Positions 150 through 2,343 of a stretch of DNA of 41,962 nucleotides are shown one piece after another. This DNA is from Flavobacteriales bacterium (GTDB lineage: Bacteria > Bacteroidota > Bacteroidia > Flavobacteriales > Flavobacteriaceae). The stretch is from assembly GCA_024229195.1 (NCBI GenBank), contig JAAESS010000064.1, positions 1-41,962 of the forward strand, written 5' to 3'. Numbering within the stretch: the stretch's first letter is position 1; the number at the start of each line of letters is the position of its first letter. Both the position numbers and the translations under genes were made by a program. The notes under the pieces were generated by a model that ran no database searches, was not told where the DNA came from, and saw nothing but the letters and a program-made list of their open reading frames with translations.

Positions 150-240
150 AAAAGCAAAATTCCCCACTAATTTTGTTTTTATTATGATTAATTTTGAGTT
201 AGTAAGCTAAAAGCACCTTTATACTAAAGGTGCTTTTTTC
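150..240 (+). ncRNA. candidate structured small RNA, copy 1 of a tandem pair
   Basis: Seen: a 5' hairpin pairs 154-161 with 169-176 around the loop CCCCACT. A core follows at 184-210. A perfect 12-bp stem then pairs 210-221 with 225-236 and ends in a T-run, as in an intrinsic terminator. Copy 2 lies about 250 bases downstream with the same order of parts. The terminator stems differ at three base pairs, all still paired (C-G/T-A, T-A/C-G, A-T/G-C), while the core between the hairpins is nearly unchanged. That pattern fits a transcribed RNA better than a protein remnant. The plus strand is favoured because the longer T-run follows the stem on that strand. No convincing promoter is assignable: the TTTG at 112-115 and AAGATTTG at 131-138 are only 15 bases apart. 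Function is unknown, and I do not recognise the family. Confidence 0.6.
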
Positions 241-399
241 GTTTTAAGACTTCTTAAAGGTATTTAATTTTTTTTGCATATTATCTATGAATGTTTAAAA
301 ATAATAGTGATTTATAGTCAAAAATGCAATAATTGCACATTTTATGAATTTAATTCATCATTTATTTGTGAATATATTAATAATTTATTAGTTTCGAAA

Positions 400-490
400 C
401 GACAAAATGCCTCACAATATTTTGTCTTCATTAATGATTCATTTTGAGTTAGTAAGCTAAAGCACTTCTGTATCCAGAAGTGCTTTCTTC
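400..490 (+). ncRNA. candidate structured small RNA, copy 2 of a tandem pair
   Basis: Seen: hairpin GACAAAAT (401-408) pairs with ATTTTGTC (419-426) around a loop containing CCTCAC, which matches CCCCAC in copy 1. A core at 434-460 differs from copy 1 at a single base. A 12-bp stem pairs 459-470 with 475-486 around the loop TATC and runs into TTTCTTC. A weak promoter candidate (TTTG at 365-368, 19 bases, TTAGTTTC at 388-395) would start transcription close to the first hairpin. The 3' stem lies just before the convergent end of punA (stop at 501), so it may also act as a terminator for that gene. Function is unknown. Confidence 0.6.
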
Positions 491-500
491 TTTTAAAGAT

Positions 501-1313
501 TTATAATTTCTTAATAAACTCCTGAACAAGTTTACTAATCATATCTTCCGAAGATTTCGCTGCGATCTGAACAGCTTCGTGAGAAACTTCTTCAATTTTA
601 CCCTCTATACCCAGGTCAGTTATTACAGATAATCCAAAACATTCCATACCCATATGCTTGGCTACAATCACTTCTGGCACAGTACTCATTCCTACCGCGT
701 CTGCTCCCATTAGTTTTACCATATGGTATTCTGCTGGAGTTTCAAACGTAGGTCCTTGCAAAGCGAGATAAATCCCCTCTTTTACATCTATTTTATTTTC
801 TACAGCAATGGATCTCATCAATCTGATCATTTTCAAACTGTAGGGCTCGTGCATATCAACAAAACGAGGTCCAAATCTTTCTTCATTTTCACCTCTTAAT
901 GGATGCTCAGGCATCATATTGATATGGTCCTTTATGATCATAACGTCGCCAACTTTGAATTCAGGGTTGACGCCTCCACAAGCATTTGACACCATTAATT
1001 TCTCTATACCTATTAACTTCATTACACGAATTGGAAAGGTCACTTCAGACATTTCCCAACCCTCATAGTAGTGAAATCTTCCTTGCATGGCCACAACCTT
1101 TTTTCCTGACAATTCTCCATAAATTAAAGTCCCTGAGTGTCCTGAAACGGTGCTCACTGGAAAATTTGGAATATCATGATACGGAATTTTCTTTTCAACA
1201 TTGATCATTTTTACAATACCTCCGAGACCAGTTCCCAAAACGATACCAATTTCTGGTTTATCGATACCTATATCCCTTAAAAATCTGGCAGTTTCTTTAA
1301 TTTTTTCGTACAT
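501..1313 (-). CDS. punA: purine-nucleoside phosphorylase
   Basis: Cleaves inosine or guanosine with phosphate to free base and ribose-1-phosphate in cytosolic purine salvage. Family signatures of the trimeric class are present (numbered from the longer start at 1331): GTGLGG at 33-38, the phosphate-binding SGHSG at 63-67, then QGRFHYYEG, ACGGVNP, the purine-site GPTFETPAE and GMSTVPE. The length is normal for the family. I prefer the ATG at 1313 (protein begins MYEKIKE), which matches how the family usually starts. The ATG at 1331 adds six residues and deepens the overlap with lpxK. With the chosen start the gene overlaps the end of lpxK by 17 bases, so it is the last gene of the minus-strand run and probably translationally coupled. 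The paired stem at 459-486 lies just beyond its stop. Confidence 0.93.
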   Translation of the reverse strand: MYEKIKETARFLRDIGIDKPEIGIVLGTGLGGIVKMINVEKKIPYHDIPNFPVSTVSGHSGTLIYGELSGKKVVAMQGRFHYYEGWEMSEVTFPIRVMKLIGIEKLMVSNACGGVNPEFKVGDVMIIKDHINMMPEHPLRGENEERFGPRFVDMHEPYSLKMIRLMRSIAVENKIDVKEGIYLALQGPTFETPAEYHMVKLMGADAVGMSTVPEVIVAKHMGMECFGLSVITDLGIEGKIEEVSHEAVQIAAKSSEDMISKLVQEFIKKL

Positions 1314-2343
1314 AATTATGAATGATTTCATTAAACTTTTGATTACCTCCCAATATGCTCATTTTGATAGGTAAATAATAGACGGGTAATTCTACTTTTA
1401 GAAAACTTCGAACATAATCCTTTTCTGTGGTAAGAATTAGTTTTCTTTCGCCATTCATCTTATTAAATTTCAAAGCGATTTTTTTTTGCTGGTCTGCATT
1501 GATAAACTGATGATCAGCAAATTCTATATGCTCAATATCCAATCTATTATTCTGAAGAAATTCTACTAAGGGTTTTGAATTTGCGATTCCGGTAACCAAC
1601 AATATTTTATACGTGCTCAATTCATCCAAAGCAATTTTACCGTCTCCTGAATAAATACAGTTGTCATATTCAATCGAACTGAAAAATACTTTCTGATGCG
1701 TTTTGGGATCAATCCTTTTCAGGATATCCATACGTATGGTCTCACTCAAATTTGAAGGACATTTACTCACAAGGATCAAATCTGCTCTATCTGCTCCGTT
1801 TATCGGTTCTCTGAGATTTCCTGTTGGTAACATAAAATCGTCTATATACAAATCATCATAGGCTGTTAACAGAATATACTTTCCTGCTTTTACATAACGA
1901 TGCTGAAAAGCATCATCAAGCAATACCAAATCAAGATCAGGTTTTATTTGCTGTAGTGTTTCAATTCCTCTTACCCTCTTTTCATCAACTGCAACATCCA
2001 AATTCTTAAACTTACGATAGAATTGAAAAGGTTCATCTCCAAGGTCTACTGCTGTAGAATCGCTTGTTGCCATTAAGAATCCTTTAGTTTTTCTTCCGTA
2101 ACCACGACTTAATACAGCTGTATGACAGGATTCATTAAAAAGTCGTATCAAATATTCTATCATAGGCGATTTTCCGGTTCCTCCAACATTAAGATTACCA
2201 ACTGCTATGATTGGGATATCAAAGGATCGCGAATTTAATAAGCCTATATCAAATGCCATATTACGAATACTTGTGATGAGTCCGTACAAAAAGGAAATAG
2301 GATATAATATTTTTCGAATGAAATTCACTTCGACAAAGTACAA
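1297..2343 (-). CDS. lpxK: tetraacyldisaccharide 4'-kinase
   Basis: Phosphorylates the 4' position of the lipid A disaccharide at the inner membrane, the sixth step of the Raetz pathway. The ATP site GNLNVGGTGKS (49-59) follows an N-terminal amphipathic/hydrophobic stretch (about 10-25) expected for membrane association. The family motifs LSRGYGRKTKG and LLDDAFQHRYV are both present. The length of 348 residues is typical. It lies 17 bases after ribB and overlaps punA, so it is cotranscribed with both. Together with the LptF/G-type permease and lolA-like genes upstream it gives the operon an outer-membrane assembly theme. Confidence 0.95.
   Translation of the reverse strand: MYFVEVNFIRKILYPISFLYGLITSIRNMAFDIGLLNSRSFDIPIIAVGNLNVGGTGKSPMIEYLIRLFNESCHTAVLSRGYGRKTKGFLMATSDSTAVDLGDEPFQFYRKFKNLDVAVDEKRVRGIETLQQIKPDLDLVLLDDAFQHRYVKAGKYILLTAYDDLYIDDFMLPTGNLREPINGADRADLILVSKCPSNLSETIRMDILKRIDPKTHQKVFFSSIEYDNCIYSGDGKIALDELSTYKILLVTGIANSKPLVEFLQNNRLDIEHIEFADHQFINADQQKKIALKFNKMNGERKLILTTEKDYVRSFLKVELPVYYLPIKMSILGGNQKFNEIIHNYVRKN

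Follow-up and report, generated by a model that had tools for sequence, protein, structure and literature searches.

The elements in the window

The window, the whole stretch of 41,962 nucleotides that was analysed, is contig C64 of the 415-contig genome of a marine bacterium. Near its 5′ end two copies of one structured RNA, B (150-240) and C (403-490), lie on the plus strand. They face a convergent purine nucleoside phosphorylase gene (501-1331, minus strand; PF01048) that lies outside the RNAs and is a syntenic neighbour, the order being as in the Lutimonas genome G012. From the 5′ side, copy B is preceded by the direct repeat TAAT-N7-TAAC (95-109), with an 11-bp period, a candidate activator site, and then by a putative sigma-54 promoter, TTGGCATAAGATTTGC (124-139), whose GG (126-127) and GC (138-139) have the GG-N10-G[CTA] geometry. 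The small RNA is predicted to extend from 150 to 238, as judged from promoter and terminator. It begins with a hairpin (150-180 in the minimum free energy fold; helix 1 in the covariation analysis) in which CAAAAT (155-160) pairs with ATTTTG (170-175) around the C-rich loop CCCCAC, continues as the conserved core (184-210), and ends in an intrinsic terminator (209-239) with perfectly paired arms of 13 bp (209-221 with 225-237). Copy C follows a probable housekeeping-type promoter (365-396) made up of TTTG (365-368) and TAGTTTCG (389-396). Its predicted RNA (401-490, plus strand) has the same parts: a 5′ hairpin (401-426 by minimum free energy; 403-408 with 419-424, loop CCTCAC), the core (434-460), and an intrinsic terminator (459-490) with arms of 12 bp, also perfect (459-470 with 475-486).

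The two 27-base cores differ at a single position, A at 190 and C at 440. Three pairs of the terminator stem are changed between copies B and C, each on both sides: C-G at 217-229 becomes T-A at 466-479, T-A at 219-227 becomes C-G at 468-477, and A-T at 221-225 becomes G-C at 470-475. Both copies fold better than all of their dinucleotide shuffles (0/200 as good in each case), with z of -4.15 for copy B and -5.72 for copy C. The covariance model R1, of which both are training sequences, scores them at 107.5 bits (E 3.9e-18) and 77.5 bits (E 3.1e-12) respectively. A sequence-only reading of this DNA had described two plus-strand elements of about 90 bases with the CAAAAT/ATTTTG hairpin and a CCyCAC loop, cores differing at one base, a 12-bp terminator stem and three compensatory pairs, and this description holds, the stem being of 13 bp in copy B. 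It took the two for a tandem pair; two copies are indeed present, but they are what the contig end has left of a tandem triplet.

Distribution and synteny in Lutimonas

The 22 genus members among 60 relatives belong to Lutimonas (Flavobacteriaceae), where matches in L. halocynthiae (L049) and L. saemankumensis (L061) place them. The 21-base pattern ATTTTGAGTTAGTAAGCTAAA, with up to two mismatches, matches 19 of the 60 relatives, all within these 22, and its reversed control gives 0 matches in the 60. The 20-base complement with up to three mismatches matches 22/22 genus genomes, in a search where the reversed control also gives scattered matches. The three genomes missed by ATTTTGAGTTAGTAAGCTAAA carry RNA-like copies (L129, L142 and L143), those of L142 and L143 being of a type without hairpin 1, and core-bearing RNA-like copies are present in all 22 Lutimonas genomes searched.

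Three copies lie 240-283 bases apart in eight genomes (G001, G004, G009, G012, G013, G014, G017 and G020); the remaining genus genomes have one or two copies together, or scattered copies, and many of the assemblies are fragmented. In G012 (L179) the triplet is located between lipA and the phosphorylase gene. The genome of the window has a further copy directly after lipA (G000:C256:3410-3473), truncated by the end of contig C256; with one copy cut there and the window starting within the array, the array is where the assembly breaks. Copies with strong model matches also occur in two genomes of a second genus, g165, and at one of its loci (L147) they adjoin genes resembling the phosphorylase and lipA by sequence. 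Extra copies in some species adjoin sppA, folK-dNK and gldC genes (L050; L082 by resemblance).

From 69 elements listed, 63 were kept. Matches in Mycoplasmatota, Oceanobacillus and Deferribacteraceae records (L048, L053 and L057) were taken as chance, the family layout being absent by eye; an inverted repeat lies upstream of the core-like match at L053. The others dropped were L110, located within a coding frame, L016:1590, a false match that lies opposite a real copy on the other strand, and L041, from the genome of the window, a one-mismatch core downstream of a gene with a hairpin after it and no clear T run.

Covariation and the conserved core

In an unfitted MAFFT alignment (43 elements), changes on both sides are seen in 14 of 21 pairs and 81.0% of the cells are paired, and 0/500 shuffles are as high on either measure. 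When the structure is slid along this alignment 43-63% of the cells are paired; sliding by -1 gives nine such pairs and 62.8% paired, yet equals the unslid structure in its count of doubly changed cells (25). In the alignment fitted to the model, which comprises 75 matches (72 distinct) and leans towards the structure, 20/21 pairs are changed on both sides and 93.2% of the cells are paired, with 0/500 shuffles as high and 42-55% paired for slid partners. Homologues with covarying stems, which the sequence-only reading had proposed to seek with a covariance model, occur genus-wide, and the model matches are strong in the second genus.

The core GATTAATTTTGAGTTAGTAAG, of about 20 bases, is nearly invariant across the copies, in part as a selection effect, core similarity having been the basis on which the elements were collected. 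Both RNAalifold and the single-sequence fold propose a weak helix within it; this helix is without covariation support because the core hardly varies, but it may leave the core partly closed.

Promoters and sigma-54 machinery

A GG-N10-G[C/T/A] sigma-54 promoter sequence is found upstream of 42 of the 63 copies (C in 28, T in 8 and A in 6), and in 39 of the 42 the -12 base is 47-49 nt before the core. The usual sigma-54 geometry sets the transcript start relative to the -12 base, and the start predicted in this way falls on the first bases of the 5′ hairpin; those 42 copies by sequence place the promoter at the predicted RNA start, as in a Qrr-like sigma-54 small RNA. The earlier statement that the pair has no neighbour that it obviously regulates overlooks the promoter at 124-139.

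Upstream of the promoter the direct repeat TAAY-N7-TAAC is present in 40/42 sigma-54 copies and 0/21 other copies, a count made on the very copies that had suggested the pattern and in which the other class includes L016:1590 and omits L010. Forty of its 43 occurrences begin 31-33 nt before GG, and other repeat spacings are found in at most 6/42 sigma-54 copies. The pattern TTGGYAYN4TTTGC occurs three times in the genome of the window (control 0). The strict promoter has 0 occurrences in a sample of 0.8 Mb from G012, where repeat plus promoter occurs once, in poor form, with the array locus giving two.

Copy C, beside the phosphorylase gene, has a TTTG / TAnnTTTG-like promoter and no sigma-54 match. 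Its TAGTTTCG fits five of the six specified letters of TAnnTTTG, the housekeeping box consensus according to PMC9723704 (section 15). There is a further type of copy in which the core lies right at a TAnnTTTG-like promoter and no CAAAAT/ATTTTG hairpin is seen by eye (L046, L059, L064, L075 and L079).

RpoN is present in 59 of the 60 relatives, including the genome of the window. In that genome the sigma-54 activator domain has nine matches, of which two are strong. One of the two (L115:1081-2244, in G000:C9) is a protein of 387 aa with receiver and AAA+ domains, in which a DNA-binding domain was not detected; we take it to resemble the FlgR-type activators. The second is an AAA+ protein with a Fis-type HTH, flanked by genes that, from their sequence, are presumably miaB and lptE. 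In Flavobacterium psychrophilum a sigma-54 regulator gene is followed by lptE, and sigma-54 promoters precede groESL, dnaK, grpE-dnaJ, htpG, lon, clpB and skp, as well as gliding genes and the putative RNA Rfp36 (PMC9723704, section 15).

Target searches

Pairing of the core was calculated for 640 start regions from 0.8 Mb of a Lutimonas genome. None of 40 shuffled cores reaches as many start regions at -12 kcal/mol, and 2/40 have as good a top ten. At this energy there are 145 coding interiors vs 177 start regions, the shuffles covering start regions only. Signal-peptide genes are not preferred in this sample (9 of the top 40, shuffle mean 10.2), and the lean of 28 lipoprotein-like genes towards the core (3/60 shuffles as extreme) is not significant (p 0.38). 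In the target prediction that the sequence-only reading had suggested, the core pairs more strongly with start regions than shuffled cores do, but with coding interiors almost as strongly, and these figures do not establish that start regions are targeted. Its assignment as a trans-acting small RNA fits the conserved core and covarying stems well, but the duplex energies do not establish the core as an antisense seed. That the core acts by antisense pairing is probable rather than demonstrated.

Several individual sites are complementary to the core. A SusC-like start region (named by eye) of one species matches at 18 of 20 bases (L132); complementary sites also lie before lipoprotein starts (by eye), one in three genomes (read at L126 and L127) and another at L138, and before the start of a transporter-like gene (by eye; L135). 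The lipoprotein and SusC-like sites are leads only. A further site, upstream of rplS (L19), has 17/20 complementary bases (L124:682-701 and L125:696-715), and the 20-mer is identical in six genus genomes (the two loci being those read). It was rejected as a target: the L19-Flavobacteria leader RF03130, a known element, adjoins it and can account for its conservation without a small RNA.

Wider occurrence of the short motif

A shorter form of the core, UUUGAGUUAGU, recurs before hairpins elsewhere in the Flavobacteriaceae, including places downstream of coding genes (by eye). Among 397 genomes of the family, R1 matches 35 at E up to 0.01, comprising three Lutimonas and two g165 genomes with strong matches and 30 with weak ones, where about four genomes are expected by chance and the E-values of R1 are rough. 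The sequence GAGTTAGT is contained in 14 of 25 fetched weak-hit loci vs 1/436 control windows, an enrichment partly built in by the model, and its sites in these loci precede hairpins by eye. The pattern WTTTGAGTTAGTNA has 435 occurrences, in 249 genomes, vs 227 for the reversed control, and at least five matches are found in 28 genomes vs 1, with a control that incompletely corrects codon and strand bias.

In G162 a terminator is flagged after seven of the 12 sites read (10/12 by eye), and the motif occurs in free-standing units arranged in tandem as well as downstream of coding genes. The corresponding number is 2/8 for the motif-rich G087, and 10 for 30 loci taken one per genome. A sigma-54-plus-core pattern matched eight of the 397 family genomes, with one control match; its gap range misses the spacing of the window by one base, no Lutimonas matched, and blanks are uninformative on that spacing. 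Of the eight, only the two of genus g138 look real by eye. Both g138 genomes seen have the full layout of sigma-54 promoter, hairpin, core and terminator.

Some related arrangements were seen in passing. At L154, L157, L166, L173, L195, L208 and L210 (L166 and L210 being the same place), from several Flavobacteriaceae genera, GAGTTAGTTAGT is followed by a nearly constant hairpin, ACCGGTGGGAGCACCGGT; the four of these units that were scanned (L154, L157, L166 and L173) have no Rfam match. Three tandem short units at L213 (G162:C1:139400-140200) have TTAACA and TAAATTTG-like promoters, with ATTTGAGTTAGT before the hairpins. A variant, TTTGAGTTAGTCA, lies beside or just after hairpins near gene ends at part of the G087 sites (L222-L226), a context that differs from that of the Lutimonas elements. 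At L133 and L140, in two species, a core-like motif and then a hairpin are located downstream of SusD-like genes (by eye).

Interpretation and rival explanations

The family of paralogous sRNA-like elements is real, genus-wide and absent from Rfam, and its promoters are predominantly of the sigma-54 type. On its best reading, which we hold to be probable, it is a new family of sigma-54-controlled paralogous trans-acting small RNAs, working like Qrr or FopS. Of a tandem triplet of free-standing small RNA genes, each of about 90 nt, the window would contain the second (B) and the third (C). Copies A and B would be transcribed by sigma-54 RNA polymerase with an obligatory AAA+ activator, so sharp induction would be possible, and copy C would supply a basal level from a weak housekeeping promoter. 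Each RNA would start at the hairpin with the C-rich loop, expose the almost invariant core of 20 nt, and end in the intrinsic terminator. The core would then base pair in trans with several mRNAs, presumably without Hfq, and copy number would set the dose. Judged by what sigma-54 controls in F. psychrophilum, stress in protein folding or in the envelope is the most likely signal.

A broader proposal is that UUUGAGUUAGU is a common word of a Flavobacteriaceae-wide RNA network, lying before terminators in small RNAs and mRNA 3′ UTRs, partly under sigma-54 stress control and operating without Hfq or RRM proteins; we regard this as possible but doubtful. The presence of the short motif before hairpins downstream of coding genes also makes a protein-binding 3′ element a serious rival. 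The core would then be the recognition site of an RNA-binding protein or a 3′-end factor, and the small RNAs would be sponges or stable 3′-end modules. Such a site would account for UUUGAGUUAGU standing directly before terminator-like hairpins in stand-alone units and downstream of stop codons alike (by eye), and for the excess of WTTTGAGTTAGTNA over its reversed control, although some codon and strand bias is left in that comparison. It sits less well with the few terminators flagged in G087, with the lack of enrichment of the core downstream of genes in the 0.8 Mb Lutimonas sample (counted without a shuffled control), and with an invariant stretch in Lutimonas of about 20 nt, longer than the shared motif of 11 nt. 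We hold it to be unlikely, if well worth keeping in view.

Two further explanations are far less probable. Both window cores run exactly from ATG to TAA as frames of nine codons, encoding MINFELVS in copy B and MIHFELVS in copy C, so the 27-base core might be a tiny gene; ATG, GTG or TTG together with the stop at codon 9 is kept in 36 of the 43 aligned elements. However, an uninterrupted ATG-to-stop frame ending at codon 9 is present in 31/43 and lost in 12, a stop interrupts the frame of one element, and no wobble base varies in codons 2-7, variation at wobble positions being confined to the start codon, the last sense codon and the stop codon, which is opposite to coding constraint. The peptide was rejected as very improbable. 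That the elements are ordinary repeats, either duplicated terminators or a functionless mobile repeat, is suggested by several copies per genome, tandem and dispersed, but the fixed promoter geometry, the covarying stems and the finding of tandem arrays at the same locus in several species argue strongly against it. Spread by phage or plasmid was likewise rejected, since neither 50,697 phage records nor 72,556 plasmid records contain a match, and a repeat origin is hardly credible.

In soil, in the sea and in fresh water, Flavobacteriaceae make up a major part of the community, and few of their small RNAs have been described. A multicopy sigma-54 family with a near-invariant core and no known chaperone would offer a compact, testable entry into their post-transcriptional control and stress response.

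Comparison with known systems

Rfam has no family at gathering score in the window and nothing near cut-off in 100-510, and membership of the RNAs in any of its families was rejected. This agrees with the sequence-only reading, which could name no known family and wished Flavo-1 excluded. Flavo-1 (RF01705) is likewise a small RNA of Flavobacteria, but does not match in the window; near one distant model hit (L168) there is a Flavo-1 match that adjoins the hit without overlapping it. Among the Rfam matches listed at E up to 10 (n=25) the sole Bacteroides-labelled family is BTnc231, at 17.6 bits against a cut-off of 80.4. The open-licence literature in PubMed Central gave nothing on Lutimonas with small RNA, and for the core 11-mer only papers unrelated by title. 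Hfq is found in 0/22 Lutimonas genomes and RRM_1 has no match in the genome of the window (n=1, 90% complete), which leaves no known small RNA chaperone.

The Qrr small RNAs of Vibrio comprise several paralogues with sigma-54 promoters, a shared core and an AAA+ activator, and serve quorum sensing together with Hfq and the response regulator LuxO. The Lutimonas RNAs resemble them in the paralogous copies, the sigma-54 promoters, the shared core and, presumably, the AAA+ activator. They differ in that Qrr depends on Hfq, absent from the 22 Lutimonas genomes searched, and they have no Rfam match.

The FopS RNAs of Bacteroides thetaiotaomicron (PMC11697453) are multicopy paralogues with a common unpaired stretch followed by a terminator, one member deriving from a 3′ UTR. 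They have a single-stranded 5′ end and sigma-ABfr promoters, bind the RRM protein RbpB, and pair near the start codons of susC-like mRNAs. Their authors state there that a Rfam model was deposited; no FopS label is among the 25 matches listed, from a library that may or may not hold that model. Both families are from Bacteroidota and consist of multicopy paralogues with one conserved stretch before the terminator, but in most Lutimonas copies a 5′ hairpin replaces the single-stranded end and the promoter is of the sigma-54 type in place of sigma-ABfr, and the RbpB partner contrasts with the absence of an RRM_1 match in the genome of the window. Rfp36 of F. psychrophilum (PMC9723704), with its transcription start at 840245, is a putative regulatory RNA of the same family of bacteria and also has a sigma-54 promoter.
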